From: Peptococcaceae bacterium BRH_c4a
GTDB lineage: Bacteria; Bacillota; Desulfotomaculia; Desulfotomaculales; Desulfocucumaceae
Direction: 5' to 3'
NCBI GenBank assembly: GCA_000961585.1
Contig: LADN01000051.1
Coordinates: 1 to 64,000, forward strand
DNA: 64,000 bases
Shown: positions 12,194 through 64,000 of the stretch, one piece after another
Layout of the letters: every line of letters starts with the position of its first letter
How positions within the stretch are numbered: the stretch's first letter is position 1
Made by a program: the position numbers and the translations under genes
Notes under the pieces: model-generated
Told to the model about the DNA's origin: nothing
Databases searched by the model: none
The model's input: only the letters and a program-made list of their open reading frames with translations

Positions 12194-12520
12194 AATCCAG
12201 AATTCAGAATTCAGAATGGTGACAGCATACTTTAAAAGTGACCCTCAAGAGACCCCACAGCGACATGCAGTGAGGGGGAGTGATTTAAGTCCGTGCGGAA
12301 TGTACCGGAGGCTGCTACTGTCTCTTAACGACCGAGCCTACGGAATGCCGAGCCGGCTGCAGGACGCAGCCGGAAGCCGGAATCGACGCAAGGATGCGGC
12401 GTTGGAGGCGGTCGGCATTCCGTTGGCGACCGAGTTTAGAGACAGTTGCAGCAGGAGGTTATGCAGGCCGGACTTAAATCGCTCCACCTACCCATTAGCG
12501 ACCATGTAGCGACCCAAAAA
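12185..12520 (+). repeat. Long-hairpin interspersed element, copy B (subfamily 1)
   Basis: After CAGAATT heptamers, this copy folds into one long imperfect hairpin. The outer arms run from about GAGTGATTTAAGTCCG to CGGACTTAAATCGCTC. The middle arms are CTGTCTCT (12318-12325) with AGAGACAG (12438-12445), and the inner arms are CGGAATGCCGA (12341-12351) with TCGGCATTCCG (12412-12422). The apex holds two small hairpins, GGCTGC/GCAGCC and CGCA/TGCG. Weak open frames through it are not conserved as proteins among the copies. Confidence 0.8.
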
Positions 12521-54157: not shown

Positions 54158-54613
54158 GTGGGTTTTGAACCGAAAATTGTTGGTTTCTGCTGCCACTACT
54201 GAGCATACTCTGCTGCGGACCTGGCAGGTTCGATGAGACTTCAGTATGCAACCAATATAAGAATAGTGGAAATGACTTGCTCCGGTAATATCGACCACCG
54301 CGTGATTCTTAACGCCTTTGAAGAAGGCGCCGATGGTGTGTTTGTAGCCGGCTGCATGGAGGGTGACTGCCATTTCCTGAAAGGGAATATACGGGCCCGG
54401 AAGAGAGTAAACGCGGTTAAAAAACTGCTGGATGAAATAGGGATAGGCGGAGACCGTCTGGAAATGTACAACCTGTCTTCAGCCCAGGGAGGCCGCTTTG
54501 CCGAAATAGCCAATGATATAACAGCAAAAATAAAGGATCTGGGACCCAACCCGTTATTTAAAAACAGCTCATGCTGCGGCTGCAGCTGCTCGAAAGAAGG
54601 TGGGGACCAATGA
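54158..54613 (+). CDS. MvhD2, selenocysteine-containing electron-transfer subunit
   Basis: This 151-residue MvhD homolog starts at GTG 54158 (AAGGAG within the end of hdrA2). UGA at 54200-54202 (residue 15) falls exactly where relatives have the Cys of the N-W-C motif (here FCCHY-Sec-AYSAADLAG). The second motif keeps Cys (VAGCMEGDCHFLKGN). The C-terminus has CCGCSC. A two-part SECIS-like stem follows the UGA. The stop overlaps metV (ATGA). Without UGA recoding, only a fragment from 54233 would remain. Confidence 0.92.
54203..54249 (+). promoter_or_regulatory. Bacterial SECIS element of mvhD2
   Basis: Outer arms GCATACT (54203-54209) and AGTATGC (54243-54249) pair perfectly. The inner stem GGACCT/AGGTTC (54217-54222 and 54226-54231) has loop GGC. 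The apical loop starts 20 nt after the UGA. Confidence 0.82.
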
Positions 54614-56264: not shown

Positions 56265-56724
56265 TCGTTAAGGAAAGTATATACCATATTAAAGTATTAA
56301 AGCGCTAAATCGCCAAAGCATTTTTATGTACCCCAGAGTTTTTCCGGGGTCGCTCCGGGGTCACTTGAGGGTCGCTGCATTGTCGCTAATGGGTAGGCGG
56401 AGCGATTTAAGTCCGGCCTGCATAACCTCCTGCTGCAACTGTCTCTAAACTCGGTCGCCAACGGAATGCCGACCGCCTCCAACGCCGCATCCATGCGTCG
56501 ATTCCGGCTTCCGGCTGCGTCCTGCAGCCGGCTCGGCATTCCGTAGGCTCGGTCGTTAAGAGACAGTAGCAGCCTCCGGTACATTCCGCACGGACTTAAA
56601 TCACTCCCCCTCACTGCATGTCGCTGTGGGGTCGCTTTTAAGGCAGCCTGTCACCATTCTGGATTCTGGATTCTGGCTTCCGCCGTCTGCAAGACGGCAC
56701 CGCCGGCAAGGCGGTTATTTTTAT
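56258..56724 (-). repeat. Long-hairpin interspersed element, copy E (subfamily 1)
   Basis: This full copy is in reverse orientation. Its tail TTTTTTATCGTTAAGGAAAG is identical to that of copy D and starts at the T run of the metF terminator. The arms CTGTCTCT and CGGAATGCCGA match TCGGCATTCCG and AGAGACAG perfectly, as in copy B. The head hairpin GCCGTCTGCAAGACGGC and the stem ACCGCCGGCAAGGCGGT end it near 56724. It fills the gap between metF and the P-type ATPase. Confidence 0.82.
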
Positions 56725-56856
56725 TAAAAAGCTAGGGTATATTTCGGCGGGTACGTGAAAAGAATTTGATTTTAGAATGCCGGAAAAAAAGAGTGACAAA
56801 GAAGCTGGGCTGATATATTATAATATTAAAGTAATCGTTTGAATGGTGGTATGGCC

Positions 56857-59109
56857 ATGTCAGAAAAAGTTGGAGTCAGAAAACAGGCGAATGGAGGTTG
56901 CAGCTGTGGCGGTGGCTGTGCGGTATCAGCCGAGGAGAAGCCTGATCATACAGTATTAAGGCTGGAGGGGCTGGACTGCGCAGACTGCGCTGCAAAGCTG
57001 GAGAAAAAAGTCAGCGAGATCCCTGGAGTGGTGGAAGCAAGAGTTAATTTCGGGGCCTCCAAAATGACGGTCCAGCACTGGAACACGTTAGAAGCGGGGT
57101 CCATAGTAAAAGCGGTTAAAGAGGCTGGTTACGGCGCCGAAGTGGAACGTGGAAAACCGATGAAAGATCAGCCGGAAGGTTTTAAAAACAAAAAAGTGAT
57201 ACTTACCGTTATTTCAGGCATTCTTCTGGCAACCGGTTTAATTCTCTCGTTTTTCGGGGTATCCGGGAGTGTGGTTGTATTCTTTTATTTCGCCTCCATG
57301 CTGACGGGCGGCTTTTACACAGCGAGAAGCGCACTTTCGTCTCTAAGGTCCCTGAGCATGGACATGAACTTTCTGATGACGGTGGCGGTGGTTGGTGCGG
57401 CGGCTATAGGGGAGTGGGCTGAAGGCGCCATGGTGGTGTTCCTCTTCTCCCTTGGCAATACCCTGCAGGCGTACACGATGGAAAAAACCAGGAACTCCAT
57501 CCGGGCGTTGATGGATCTCTCTCCCAGGGAGGCGTTGGTCAGGCGGAACGGTGAAGAAGTTCGACTTGCGGTGGAGGAGATCAATATCGGCGACATTATT
57601 ATAGTAAAGCCCGGCGAGCGCTTTGCCATGGACGGTGAAGTTATTTTGGGCGGAACGGACGTGAACCAGGCGCCGATTACGGGTGAGTCCATGCCGGTAA
57701 AAAAGAAGCCCGGGGACGAGGTTCACGCCGGGACCGTCAACGGACAGGGATCCGTCGAGGTGAAAGTCACCAAACTGGTGGAGGACACTACTCTGGCCAG
57801 GATCATCAACCTTGTGGAGGAGGCCCAGGCTCAGAAGGCCCCGTCCCAGCAGTTCGTGGACGTTTTTGCCAAATACTACACTCCTGCGGTCGTCGTCGGC
57901 GCAGTACTGGTGGCCACGGTGCCCTGGCTGGCCTTCGGGCAGCCCTTTCAACTGTGGTTTGAGCGGGCGCTGATCCTGCTGGTGATTTCTTGCCCCTGCG
58001 CTCTGGTCATCTCGACCCCGGTGTCCATTGTCGCAGCCATCGGCAGCGCCGCCAGGAGAGGAGTTCTGATCAAGGGGGGCGCTTACCTGGAAGAAGCGGG
58101 GGCCTTGAAGGTGATAGCCTTCGATAAAACAGGCACCTTAACCGCCGGTCTGCCGGAAGTAACCGACGTAATAGCGGCGGCAGGGTACATCCAGGAAAAG
58201 GTGGTTGAAATCGCAGCAGCAATTGAGAAACGCTCCCAGCACCCCCTGGCGGATGCGATTATACGTTACGCCCGGGCAAGAAACATTGCGGTACCCGACG
58301 CAGATGACTTTCAGTCCTTTACCGGCAAGGGCGCCGGGGCCAGAATCGGTGGGGAAGCCTATTATGTAGGCAGCAGGCGGTTGCTTGAGGATTTGAATAT
58401 CCCCTTGGCATCTGTGTTGATTAAACATCTGACAGAACTCCAGGATCGGGGTAAAACAGCCATGATAGTCGGAACAGCTGACGAAGTGGCGGGGATTATT
58501 GCGGTGGCCGACAGCAGCAGGGAGAGCGGCAGGGCGACCGTGGAGGGACTGCGCCGGGCAGGAATAACAAAACTGGTCATGCTGACAGGTGACAACGCCG
58601 GAACGGCCAGGGCCATTGCCGCTGAACTGGGAATAAACGAATACCGTGCGGAACTGTTGCCGGAGGACAAGCTGGACGTTATTAGATCTCTTCAGGCGGA
58701 ATGCGGCAGGGTGGCCATGGTGGGCGACGGGGTCAATGACGCCCCGGCTCTGGCCGCCGCCACGGTGGGCATAGCCATGGGCGGGGCCGGCACCGACACC
58801 GCCCTGGAGACCGCCGATATCGTCTTGATGGCCGATGACCTGACCAAGCTGCCTTACGCCGTTTATTTAAGCCGGCGGGCGCTGCGGGTGATCAAGCAGA
58901 ACATCGCCTTTTCCCTGCTGGTTAAAGGTGTGTTCATTGCGGCAACCTTCGCAGGGTTTGCCAACCTCTGGATGGCGGTCTTCGCCGATACCGGGGCGGC
59001 CCTGTTGGTGATCGCCAACGGGATGCGCCTGATGAGGGTGGAAGATCCGTACAGACAGCAGGAGCCCAGTCCGACCCGCAGTCCATCAGTCATTTACGCC
59101 AAGGCATAA
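56857..59109 (+). CDS. cadA: Heavy-metal P1B-type ATPase (CadA/ZntA-like)
   Basis: This protein of about 750 residues exports divalent soft metals (Zn, Cd, Pb). A Cys-rich N-terminus (CSCGGGC) and an HMA domain with GLDCADCAAKLEKK at about 40-100 precede the core. The core carries ITGESMPVKKK, the transmembrane CPCALVIS, the phosphorylation motif DKTGTLT and the hinge GDGVNDAPALA. CPC plus these motifs fits the Zn/Cd subgroup. ATG 56857 and ATG 56851 are both plausible starts. An ArsR gene lies downstream, separated by element copy F. Confidence 0.9.
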   Translation: MSEKVGVRKQANGGCSCGGGCAVSAEEKPDHTVLRLEGLDCADCAAKLEKKVSEIPGVVEARVNFGASKMTVQHWNTLEAGSIVKAVKEAGYGAEVERGKPMKDQPEGFKNKKVILTVISGILLATGLILSFFGVSGSVVVFFYFASMLTGGFYTARSALSSLRSLSMDMNFLMTVAVVGAAAIGEWAEGAMVVFLFSLGNTLQAYTMEKTRNSIRALMDLSPREALVRRNGEEVRLAVEEINIGDIIIVKPGERFAMDGEVILGGTDVNQAPITGESMPVKKKPGDEVHAGTVNGQGSVEVKVTKLVEDTTLARIINLVEEAQAQKAPSQQFVDVFAKYYTPAVVVGAVLVATVPWLAFGQPFQLWFERALILLVISCPCALVISTPVSIVAAIGSAARRGVLIKGGAYLEEAGALKVIAFDKTGTLTAGLPEVTDVIAAAGYIQEKVVEIAAAIEKRSQHPLADAIIRYARARNIAVPDADDFQSFTGKGAGARIGGEAYYVGSRRLLEDLNIPLASVLIKHLTELQDRGKTAMIVGTADEVAGIIAVADSSRESGRATVEGLRRAGITKLVMLTGDNAGTARAIAAELGINEYRAELLPEDKLDVIRSLQAECGRVAMVGDGVNDAPALAAATVGIAMGGAGTDTALETADIVLMADDLTKLPYAVYLSRRALRVIKQNIAFSLLVKGVFIAATFAGFANLWMAVFADTGAALLVIANGMRLMRVEDPYRQQEPSPTRSPSVIYAKA

Positions 59110-59490
59110 AATAACCGCCTTGCCGGCGGTGCCGTCTTGCAGACGGCGGAATCCAGGAGCCAGAAGCCAGGAGCCAGAATAAGCAAGCGTGACCCTCAAG
59201 CGACATGCAGTGAGGGGGAGGGTTTTTAGTCCAGGCGGATGTTCCGGAGGCTGTTATCTGGCTCTTGGCGACAGAGCCGTACGGACTGCCGAACCGGCTG
59301 CAGGACGCAGCCGGTAGCCGGAATCGACGCAAGGACGCGGCGTTGGAGGCGGTCGGCAGTCCGTTAGGCGACGAGCTTAGAGCCAGTTCAGCCGGAGGAT
59401 AAGTAGATCGGACTCAAACCCCTCCACCGGCCACAGAGTGACCCCGGAGCGACATGCAGTGATTTAAGTCCGTGCGGATGCTGGAAATGA
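59106..59490 (+). repeat. Long-hairpin interspersed element, copy F (subfamily 2)
   Basis: The copy begins at the cadA stop codon. The arms CTGGCTCT (59258-59265) and AGAGCCAG (59379-59386), and CGGACTGCCGA (59282-59292) and TCGGCAGTCCG (59353-59363), are perfectly complementary yet differ in sequence from copies B and E. The tail differs from those of D and E: it ends in a second TGCAGTGATTTAAGTCCGTG-like piece. It fills the gap between cadA and the ArsR gene. Confidence 0.82.
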
Positions 59491-59554: not shown

Positions 59555-59938
59555 ATGTCCGGTGTCAGGCAGCAGGACGTTTGTGAAGTTTTTTGTTTTA
59601 ATGAAGAAAAAGTTGAGCGTTTGAAAAGTGAAGTGAAAATAACAGATGGACTCGCTACTGTTTTCAAGGCCCTCGCCGACGATACCAGGATTAAAATAGT
59701 ATACGCACTGTCCCGGGAGGAACTGTGCGTGTGCGATGTGTCCAGCATTATCGGCTCTACGGTGGCTGCGGCCTCCCATCACCTGCGCTTCTTGAAAAAT
59801 ATCGGCCTGGCCAAACAGCGCAGACAGGGGAAAATGATCTTTTATTCGCTTGACGACGACTGCGTTACTACCATAATTGATTCGGCTCTCAATCATTTCC
59901 GTCACAACAACCAGAAAAAAGGAAAAAGAATTGAATGA
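59555..59938 (+). CDS. ArsR/SmtB-family metal-responsive repressor (CadC/CmtR-like)
   Basis: This 127-residue winged-helix protein has the sensor motif ELCVCDVSSI in the alpha-3 region and DNA-recognition helix residues around VAAASHHLRFLKNIG. An N-terminal Cys (VCEVFCF) could complete a CadC-type thiolate site. The protein probably releases DNA on binding Cd/Pb/Zn or a similar thiophilic ion. It lies between cadA and selD and could control either. A dyad in the selD leader is a candidate operator. Confidence 0.85.
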   Translation: MSGVRQQDVCEVFCFNEEKVERLKSEVKITDGLATVFKALADDTRIKIVYALSREELCVCDVSSIIGSTVAAASHHLRFLKNIGLAKQRRQGKMIFYSLDDDCVTTIIDSALNHFRHNNQKKGKRIE

Positions 59939-60077: not shown

Positions 60078-61127
60078 TTGAAAAACCAATTTCCCAATAT
60101 TAATTTAACTTCTTATTCGCCTGGGTCCGGGTGAGCTTGTAAAATAGGTCCGGCGGACCTTACTCAAATACTGCGTTGCCTGCCGCCAATCAAAGACCTG
60201 AACGTCCTGGCGGGCCGTGACGATAACGCGGCAGTCTATAAACTTAATGACGAAACAGCTCTGGTTCAAACCGTGGACTATATAACTCCCGTTGTTGACG
60301 ACCCCTATCATTTCGGAATGATAGCCGCTGCCAACGCTCTAAGCGATATTTACGCCATGGGCGGAAAACCGGTAATGGCTTTGAATTTAATAGGTTTTCC
60401 CAACCAAAGCCTTCCCCTTTCAATCATGGAGGCCATCATGAAAGGTGGTGCTGATAAAGCTGCCGAGGCTGGCGTGACCATCGTTGGAGGTCATTCGATT
60501 ACCGACAATTCTCCCAAGTACGGACTTGTAGCAACCGGTTTTTTAAATGTCCGAAGCATGATTACAAAACGCGGTGCGAGGCCGGGAGACTCTCTAATCC
60601 TTACAAAACCGCTGGGCGTCGGTGTGATTACCACAGGGATCGACCACAAAATGGTGGGTGACGATACTGTCAACCGGGTAGTAAAGATTATGACCACCTT
60701 AAACAAAAGGGCATCGGAAATTATGCTTGCCGTCGGGGTGAATGCCTGTACCGACGTAACAGGATTCGGGCTGTTGGGACACCTGCGGGAGATACTTGCA
60801 GCCAGTAATGTCGGAGTGCGCATAACAGCCTCCACGGTTCCCGTTATCCCGGAATCAGAGGAGTTGATACAGGCAGGAGCGGTGGCCGGAGGAACTCATA
60901 ACAATTACCGCTTCCTCCGGGATATGGTTAAATGGGACCCTTCCTTGTCCAAAGAAATGAGACTGATTCTTTGCGATCCTCAGACATCAGGCGGTCTTTT
61001 AATAGCAGTATCCCCTGAGAATAAGGATCGTTTAATTATGGAGCTTCAAGAAGACAAAGAAATTCTGGAGGCGGCAGAAATTGGGGCAATAATTGAAAAT
61101 CCCGGAGAAATAAGTGTGCTGGCTTGA
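60078..61127 (+). CDS. selD: Selenophosphate synthase, selenocysteine-containing
   Basis: This 349-residue enzyme makes selenophosphate from selenide and ATP, the Se donor for Sec-tRNA. TTG 60078 follows AAAGGAG. UGA at 60132-60134 (residue 19) lies in the active-site loop GSG-Sec-ACKIGPADL, exactly where SelD proteins have Cys or Sec. Later motifs include GRDDNAAVYKL, DYITPVVDDPYHFG and GGHSITDN. Without recoding, only a protein lacking the catalytic loop (from about 60273) would be predicted. Other sel genes are not in the window. Confidence 0.95.
60146..60160 (+). promoter_or_regulatory. Bacterial SECIS element of selD
   Basis: AGGTCC (60146-60151), loop GGC and GGACCT (60155-60160) form a perfect 6-bp stem. 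The apical loop begins 17 nt after the UGA. Confidence 0.82.
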
Positions 61128-61173: not shown

Positions 61174-62319
61174 ATGAAGTTTTCACCATTTAAATTTCAG
61201 TTACCCTTAGCTGCAGGCGGTATTACATTAATGGCCTTCAATTATCTACAGTTTGCAGTGCCTCATGGAAAAGGATTAATAACATTGTCAGATATCACAC
61301 GGGCTGGATTAACTATGGGTCAAACAGCCTTATATTACCCTATAATCGTAATTATGTTAGCATTAACCATTGTAGACCTGTTTTTTACTGTTGTTTTCCT
61401 AAAAAGCCTTATACAATGGCTTTTCAATAAAAATGAATATACAGAATTTTTAAATGGTCCACCGACAACAAGTATAGGCATTTTTGTACCTATTGCCTCG
61501 CTGTCTATGACAGCAAATGTGATTTGGGGTCCCTTGGGTTTTTTTATTCCGAAATTGTCATCTAATATACAATCGCTGATGTTGCCTGCCTTAATCTTCT
61601 TTGGATTCCTTTGGCTGATGCTTTTTGTACTTGAACTTAGGCTTCTTAAGGTCTGGTTAAGCCAGCCACTTGATTTAACAAAATTAAGTTTCGTATGGCT
61701 GCTTGACGTTTTTACATTCGGTCTGGTCAATTTAACCGGTACAGGAATTGCCGCTACAGCAAGCGACAGGGCGATCTCATCCATAGCAGCCTTTTCGTCT
61801 TCACTTGCCTTAACTGTTGGTATTTTCTTATTTATAACCAAACTGGCTTATTTGATTTACCTGCAGATAAAATCCGCCAGTTTACCGCAAAAACCAGTGC
61901 AACCAAGTTACTTTTTAGTGATTCCCATTACTTGTCTTTTCGGAATTAGCTTTTACAAAATCACACTTTATTTGCAAACACATTTCAAATATGATGTAGA
62001 AGCTTTATCGTTCTTCCTGATCAATTTTTCTTATGTTATTACAATCGGCTGGGGTGTCTTTTGTTTATATCTACTAAGTGATTACTTTATAAATTATTTC
62101 TATAAGAGTGATTTTTCACCAACCCAATGGGGTATGGTCTGAGCTTTGGTTGGCTCTCAAGTTTTGGGAGTTTATGTTTACGGAAATTATTATCCCAGCT
62201 TAGCGCTCTCGATTTTAAACTATGTAAGTACAATATTGGCATCAGTTGTATTTATTCTTGTTGCCGTTAAATTTTATCAGGCGGAAAAGAAAAACAAATT
62301 AACTATGGTAAAGGTTTGA
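61174..62319 (+). CDS. Candidate membrane selenoprotein, TDT/TehA-SLAC1-like
   Basis: A conventional reading ends at UGA 62140-62142 after 322 residues. The same frame continues 58 codons with a further hydrophobic segment and a Lys-rich tail, giving a 381-residue protein with UGA at residue 323 (QWGMV-Sec-ALVGSQVLG). About ten hydrophobic segments and the N-terminal FQLPLAAGGITLMAF recall TDT (TehA/SLAC1) carriers. A SECIS-like stem follows the UGA. The start is ATG after GAGGAGAAG. It lies 46 bp after selD and is visibly more AT-rich than its neighbours. Function is inferred only: selenium or sulfur oxyanion transport is possible. I recall a TsoY (seleno)protein label in public annotation that may cover this family; I could not check. 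Confidence 0.8.
62154..62170 (+). promoter_or_regulatory. Candidate bacterial SECIS element in the membrane protein gene
   Basis: CTCTCAA (62154-62160), loop GTT and TTGGGAG (62164-62170) form a 7-bp stem with one G-U pair. G occupies the apical loop, which begins 18 nt after the UGA. Confidence 0.75.
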
Positions 62320-62355
62320 TAAGCGCAATGATGATCTAAGCGGAGGGGGAATACC

Positions 62356-62615
62356 ATGAATGCAGTCGCTATTACAGAAAAGCGCCACCGCTTACAACCG
62401 CTAATTGGTCACTCTGGTACTCCTGATCGTTGGAGGCGAACAGCTGCACATACTGTGGTACTTGTGAAAAAGTCTGCCGGATGCAAATAAACCCAGGTCT
62501 TTACCGTGAAACAGGTATTGTGAATCACGGAGACTGCCTGAAATGTTCATGTTGTATTGAGAAATGCCCCCAAAGAGCATTGAGTTTTAATGATAGTTCA
62601 AAAAATGTAGCTTAA
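62356..62615 (+). pseudogene. Frameshifted small Fe-S membrane protein
   Basis: The coding signal moves through three frames. ATG 62356 (SD GGAGGGGGA) gives MNAVAITEKRHRLQPLI. From 62405 the +1 frame gives a hydrophobic LVTLVLLIVGGEQ. From about 62439 the next frame gives CTYCGTCEKVC and CLKCSCCIEKCP, two complete [4Fe-4S] motifs. Joined, they would make a basic N-terminus, one membrane helix and a ferredoxin, resembling NapH/YccM-type proteins. Two one-base shifts imply a pseudogene or sequence errors. If separate, the ferredoxin would start at TTG 62430. It is the third gene of the selD unit. Confidence 0.6.
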
Positions 62616-63089: not shown

Positions 63090-64000
63090 TTGAAAGTTGT
63101 TTACCCTATTTGTTGTGGCGTCGATGTACACAAGACATTTCTCGTCGCTACGATCATCGCAACCCAGGGCATAGTTCCGAGTTACAAGAAGAAGCGCTTT
63201 TCCACCTTCAACAATTCCATTCTGGCGTTCAAGCAGTGGTTGTTGGATAACAATTGCTTGGACGTCTGCATGGAGAGCACCGGCAAATACTATGTCCCCA
63301 TCTACAATTTACTGGAGGACAGCATCCGCGTTACCGTCGCCAATCCCAAGTGGGTTGCTGCTGTTAAGGGCAACAAGGATGACGTTAAGGACTCCAAGTG
63401 GATCGGCGACCTGTTTCGGCTCGGCCTAGTTCCCGGCAGCTTTATCCCATCTAAGTGCGTCCGCATTTTGCGGGAGTACACACGGTATCGCTTCAAACTC
63501 GTTTCCTGCAAGTCTAGCGAAAAGAACCGCTTCCAGAACGCTTTCACCGTTTGCAATGTCGCCCTTGATGCTGTCGTTTCCGACATGTTTGGCAAATCTG
63601 CCTCATCCATCACGGACTACCTTGTAAACTCTGATACCTTCGATCCGGAGCATTGCATTTCGCTGCTGCAACGATCCCTCAAAAAGAAAGCCGATGCGGT
63701 CATCGAATCCATAGAGGGTTTTCAGATGACCGAGGAACAAAAGGAGCGCATCCGTTTCGTTCGCAAGCACTTGGATTTCGTGGATAAGCTCATTGCTGAT
63801 CTCGATCAAACCATCACCGGTATGGTTGAACCCTTTGAAAGTGCAATCTCCCTGCTGTGTACCATTCCCGGAGTTGACCGCACCTCTGCTATTACGATCA
63901 TCTCCGAGATCGGTACGGATATGTCTCAGTTCTCGTCCTCAAAACGCCTGTGCTGCTGGGCGGGACTAACGCCCGGCAACAATCAATCCGCAGGTAAAAA
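63090..64000 (+). CDS. IS110-family transposase, 3' end beyond the window
   Basis: At least 303 residues are visible, starting at TTG 63090 after GAGGAGGG. The DEDD catalytic residues are visible as D12 (GVDVHKT), E62 (MESTGKYY), and D97/D98 with D101 (GNKDDVKDSKW). The C-terminal transposase_20 domain begins with LLCTIPGVDRTSAITIISEIG and CCWAGLTPGNNQS. The serine-containing end expected in the family lies past 64000. IS110 transposases use a bridge RNA encoded in the noncoding end. Confidence 0.9.
   Translation, partial: MKVVYPICCGVDVHKTFLVATIIATQGIVPSYKKKRFSTFNNSILAFKQWLLDNNCLDVCMESTGKYYVPIYNLLEDSIRVTVANPKWVAAVKGNKDDVKDSKWIGDLFRLGLVPGSFIPSKCVRILREYTRYRFKLVSCKSSEKNRFQNAFTVCNVALDAVVSDMFGKSASSITDYLVNSDTFDPEHCISLLQRSLKKKADAVIESIEGFQMTEEQKERIRFVRKHLDFVDKLIADLDQTITGMVEPFESAISLLCTIPGVDRTSAITIISEIGTDMSQFSSSKRLCCWAGLTPGNNQSAGK

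Follow-up and report, generated by a model that had tools for sequence, protein, structure and literature searches.

The DNA analysed here, to which we refer as the window, is the whole stretch of 64,000 nucleotides from Peptococcaceae bacterium BRH_c4a, and it carries two neighbouring genes with in-frame UGA codons, selD and tsoY, downstream of a gene for an ArsR/SmtB-family regulator (Table 1). The tsoY frame opens at an ATG preceded by a GGAG site, meets a UGA at codon 323, remains open beyond it, and is closed by a TGA (62317-62319) directly followed by a TAA (62320-62322). A sequence-only reading of the same DNA had proposed this frame as a new membrane selenoprotein. Re-reading of the sequence reproduced its coordinates, its count of 58 readthrough codons, and its TGATAA double stop, as well as the 46 bp that separate tsoY from the stop codon (61125-61127) of a Sec-containing selD.

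The newness of the family, however, is rejected. The product matches the NCBIfam equivalog model NF047643, selenoprotein TsoY, over the entire model (1-366 of 366) and with 581.6 bits, the cut-off being 250, and the family is also named in a 2026 review (PMC13188914), which gives the TsoY site as UxxV, crediting Haft & Tolstoy 2025 (mSystems e01417-24). The addition of the present analysis is structural, namely a predicted SLAC1/TehA fold and the placement by alignment of Sec at the gate position, both absent from the sequence-only reading. The accessible part of the review makes no mention of this fold or gate position for TsoY, and the literature searched, the founding paper (Haft & Tolstoy 2025) aside, yielded no statement on the replacement of the gate residue by Sec.

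Table 1. Features of the window referred to in the text.
Feature	Position	Strand	Basis or remark
TwoAYGGAY RNA motif	12303-12460	+	RF01731
VhuD/MvhD-like iron-sulfur subunit (hydrogenase/heterodisulfide-reductase), candidate selenoprotein	54159-54613	+	159 bits; directly 3' of an HdrA-like gene
UGA in the iron-sulfur subunit	54200-54202	+	GFCCHYUAYSAADLAG
TwoAYGGAY RNA motif	56424-56581	-	RF01731
Heavy-metal P-type ATPase	56839-59109	+	TIGR01525, 631 bits; just 5' of the ArsR regulator and selD-tsoY
TwoAYGGAY RNA motif	59242-59400	+	RF01731
ArsR/SmtB-family regulator	59555-59938	+	NF033788, 90.3 bits, cut-off 55
selD, selenophosphate synthetase, Sec form	60078-61127	+	TIGR00476, 386.5 bits; TTG start after AAAGGAG
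selD UGA	60132-60134	+	motif SYSPGSGUACK
tsoY, SLAC1/TehA-fold (predicted) membrane selenoprotein	61174-62319	+	381 residues with UGA as Sec; NF047643, PF03595, homolog alignment
Sec323 codon UGA	62140-62142	+	TGA in each of 15 close homologs; two distant homologs have Cys
Readthrough, 58 codons	62143-62316	+	remainder of TM9, plus TM10
bSECIS-like hairpin GGCUCUCAA-GUU-UUGGGAGUU	62152-62172	+	equal spacing in 15 genomes, low synonymous variation
4Fe-4S dicluster remnant	62427-62612	+	Fer4, 30 bits; right after tsoY
IS110-family transposase	63090-63998	+	NF033542, 177.7 bits; 3' of the tsoY locus, runs off the window

The 4Fe-4S remnant that follows tsoY has its upstream part out of frame and is thus probably what is left of a NapH-like gene after decay, with intact relatives near tsoY in two other loci (L041 and L048). 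An HSGTPDRW fragment on this side of tsoY was considered as a broken tsoX (HSGNPxU) and discarded, its readable part being the ferredoxin remnant.

Selenocysteine at the in-frame UGA

Whole genomes of one phylum were searched with TsoY models as queries, and 14 further genomes were found whose tsoY holds exactly one in-frame TGA, which makes 15 with BRH_c4a. All of these TGAs share a single alignment column, in the motif MVU[AG][LF]VGSQVLG, and over the 45 residues past the UGA the Sec homologs are 47-76% identical to the window protein, against 50-74% ahead of it. Two distant homologs (L014 and L040; 21-24% identity) have Cys at the Sec site, in LICPGVA, and no stop. Among the 17 sequences 23 columns are invariant, of which Sec/Cys323 is one, and the only one to hold a Cys. 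Homologs with Cys at residue 323, which the sequence-only reading had put forward as worth looking for, were found; no homolog was found to end at residue 322, and all 17 have either Sec or Cys at residue 323. The two Cys proteins represent natural Cys controls; one is encoded by an organism from the same family (L014:1468-2643), the other by a genome that decodes Sec and has YedE as well (L040:6857-8026, genome G319). A contig scan with the poor peptide patterns of a three-sequence alignment returned two loci, from Desulfotruncus arcticus and Peptococcaceae BRH_c8a, both already found, and a comparison of the TsoY protein with plasmids gave no match.

The readthrough contains a hairpin with a 9-bp stem that starts 10 nt past the UGA, its loop lying 19-21 nt past it, and the consensus GGCUCYCAR-GUU-YUGGGRGUU stands at a fixed distance from the UGA in 15/15 homologs. 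Across these, 98.5% of the stem cells pair, whereas slid controls reach 27-73%, and one compensatory change, from A-U to G-C, is present in L045. Third-position entropy in the stem averages 0.43 bits versus 1.01 upstream, where none of 63 windows of the alignment is as low, and a GGC codon in the stem is used by all 15 homologs. Folded alone, the hairpin of this genome is unremarkable (z -0.88; 39/200 shuffles as good), and such single-sequence energies say little. The shuffle control for pair covariation is weak as well (42/500 shuffles reach the observed value), since the stem hardly varies, which makes synonymous constraint the better test. The sequence-only reading had likened the hairpin spacing to that at three other UGA sites; two of these were confirmed, in selD (60132) and at 54200.

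The genome encodes selA, selB, selC, and selD, with selA and selB adjacent on one contig (C9) and the tRNA-Sec gene, anticodon UCA, on another (C37), so that the absence of selA, selB, and selC, named earlier as a point that would speak against Sec, does not apply. A second tRNA-Sec-shaped tRNA (L016:1501-1597, that is G000:C85:102163-102255; RF01852, 51.6 bits, above the gathering score) lies ~50 bp ahead of a SirA-like gene and yedE (487 bits). Its anticodon, GCA, is that for Cys, and it is possibly an allo-tRNA of Sec type that serves Cys. Within the window, the iron-sulfur subunit with an in-frame UGA is a candidate for a second selenoprotein.

The conserved UGA, the Cys homologs, the conserved hairpin with its low synonymous variation, and the complete Sec machinery make the case for Sec at residue 323 a strong one, established as far as sequence allows, and they bear out the proposal of a membrane selenoprotein beside selD. 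It might be argued that UGA 62140 is an ordinary stop and the frame downstream of it a product of chance, because the hairpin of the window sequence taken alone is unexceptional and the ORF truncated at the UGA already reaches 503.8 bits with NF047643. Nevertheless, a chance frame would hardly place the UGA in one column 15 times out of 15, with Cys in distant homologs, nor keep a readthrough that is 47-76% identical among homologs and a hairpin under constraint; chance readthrough is rejected on this conservation, and we regard it as highly improbable.

Predicted fold and the gate position

The TsoY profile had no match among PDB sequences, and it took Pfam, profile-profile alignment, and the comparison of structures to reveal the fold. 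PF03595 (SLAC1, voltage-dependent anion channel) covers residues 3-366 with 31.1 bits, over a gathering cut-off of 27.9, and matches 12/17 members of the family at E 0.01. An AlphaFold2 model, built from a shallow alignment of 17 sequences with Cys standing for Sec, has a pLDDT of 84.2 and a pTM of 0.86, and its predicted helices at 316-338 and 343-380 underlie the assignment of the readthrough to the remainder of TM9 and to TM10. The first thirteen Foldseek matches of this model are SLAC1, SLAH, and TehA structures (E down to 1.2e-4), and VIA-align gives Z values of 26.6-30.9 for every SLAC1/TehA entry, those of 28-31 extending over ~300 residues, the next row being a designed helical protein with Z 19.2. 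According to the model, TsoY is a protein of the SLAC1/TehA anion-channel fold with ten helices.

In a profile-profile comparison (hhalign, 95.2%) with 13 ordinary members of the SLAC1 family, all from bacteria of the same class, Sec323 aligns with the invariant Phe of SLSWWAFTFPLGA, the F of WWAFTFP. HMMER places it on this Phe in 15/15 Sec members, and sub-alignments do likewise (97.5% and 95.3%). The local posterior at this match is moderate, ~7/9, with a gap three residues on, and the two Cys homologs by themselves gave no reliable alignment with SLAC1. In TehA the aligned Phe has the number 262 and stands directly ahead of Pro263. Phe262 is the TehA gate on TM9 and its plant equivalent, SLAC1 F450, is a key gate residue; conductance is raised by F262A in TehA and by F450A in SLAC1 (PMC11050165, PMC10645844). 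By alignment, Sec323 would thus occupy the gate-Phe position of TM9, an assignment of limited confidence. Since it is Sec or Cys that aligns with the gate Phe, what we claim is the fold, and not a Phe-gated SLAC1 channel.

Gene company and putative function

The neighbourhood of 16 tsoY loci was surveyed over ~6 kb on each side. selD occurs in 10/16, a divergent LysR gene also in 10/16, and a NifS-like cysteine desulfurase in 6/16, while other recurrent neighbours are DsrE-like proteins, related to TusD or YedF, and ArsR genes, with an ArsR-like gene adjoining tsoY in L041 and L052. The co-occurrence with selD, raised in the sequence-only reading, is widespread: the Sec motif of selD lies within ~7.5 kb in 11/15 Sec loci. 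All ten LysR proteins match NF040786 (selenium metabolism-associated LysR, LysR_Sec_metab) with the lowest E in the list, the best being 3.9e-73, and the two proteins scored, with 224 and 229.8, stay just below the cut-off of 250. YedE, YedF, and LysR_Se were put forward as selenium genes from gene company of this kind (PMC5322559). LipDH-like oxidoreductase and ferredoxin-type proteins are encoded close to tsoY in several loci. TsoX, another selenoprotein, thioredoxin-like, is present in only 2/17 TsoY-family genomes and adjoins tsoY only in L054, in the order tsoY-tsoX-selD; none scored above the cut-off in the BRH_c4a genome, nor did TsoB in any of the 17. In a survey of the phylum (398 genomes), 3/12 SelA-positive genomes with TsoY encode true YedE, versus 140/245 of those without TsoY (Fisher p 0.037, uncorrected for relatedness). 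BRH_c4a is one of the three with both, its yedE lying on contig C85, so that TsoY is not its sole candidate selenium transporter.

We consider it fairly probable that TsoY is a ten-helix selenoprotein of SLAC1/TehA fold with Sec323 at the gate, which would act as a channel-like carrier of selenium or sulfur anions. TsoY would conduct a small anion of selenium or sulfur (selenite, sulfite, HSe-, or HS-) and in this way feed or unburden the SelD pathway. In the constriction, chemical control by the selenolate would take the place of steric gating by Phe, either through reversible oxidation or through a direct bond between Sec323 and the chalcogen species in passage. Since a selenolate has less bulk than Phe, carries a charge at neutral pH, and is reactive, it might hold the pore open, capture a chalcogen, or respond to redox. 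The selenium-handling role suggested by the sequence-only reading is in keeping with this, a selenium or sulfur anion being the best guess from the fold and the selenium-gene neighbours. A precedent comes from yeast, which becomes tolerant of selenite when SSU1, the gene of a sulfite pump, is overexpressed (PMC5349236).

The direction of transport might be opposite to uptake, TsoY being, like Ssu1, an exporter or a valve by which selenite, sulfite, or selenide leaves the cell when in excess. SLAC1/TehA channels are passive, the gradient sets the direction, and a negative inside potential favours anion efflux. The ArsR-family regulator upstream in the window, and those at two other loci, would suit such a valve, as would the selenite tolerance of yeast that overexpresses SSU1. 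However, the SelD, NifS-like, DsrE/YedF-like, and LysR neighbours look like selenium supply, and YedE is somewhat rarer with TsoY, as if TsoY could take its place, even though the direction of YedE is itself undecided in the literature; export is a tentative reading. It is rather unlikely that Sec323 is catalytic and TsoY a membrane selenol/thiol oxidoreductase working with TsoX on a SLAC1 scaffold, instead of a channel. Most Sec residues are redox catalysts, and the thioredoxin-like TsoX between tsoY and selD in L054, like the LipDH-like and ferredoxin-type proteins of several loci, would fit such an enzyme, but the 23 invariant columns offer no conserved resolving Cys near Sec323, and the rarity of TsoX argues against a general partnership.

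The most specific form of the anion-carrier reading, in which TsoY is a Sec-gated channel whose selenolate, in the place of the gate Phe, senses or binds the conducted selenium or sulfur species, is a possibility we hold with considerable doubt. If true, TsoY would give prokaryotes a channel dedicated to selenium anions, and it would be, to our knowledge, the first channel with a Sec gate. TsoY also suggests that the steric plug of a channel gate can be exchanged for a chemically reactive residue. According to the 2026 review (PMC13188914), a specific high-affinity system for selenium transport is yet to be identified in prokaryotes. As a concrete candidate, TsoY offers a relative of solved fold, a named residue, Sec323, and Cys homologs for comparison.

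As for known systems, the window protein has the UxxV site of the TsoY family (VUALVGSQ) and matches it over the full length, with no difference in sequence. Yeast Ssu1, which belongs to the TDT/SLAC1 family whose fold TsoY would share, is eukaryotic and has no Sec, the likeness being one of superfamily. The putative selenium transporter YedE (TIGR04112) is also a ten-helix membrane protein encoded beside selenium genes in SelD organisms (PMC5322559), yet it belongs to a different family. To TehA and SLAC1 (HiTehA 3M71, AtSLAC1) TsoY is linked by the PF03595 match, the predicted fold, and the TM9 motif W-x-x-x-[gate], at ~12% identity. Whereas these channels have Phe at the gate, TsoY has Sec or Cys, and the helix-breaking Pro that follows the gate is Ala or Gly in the Sec-containing TsoY proteins.
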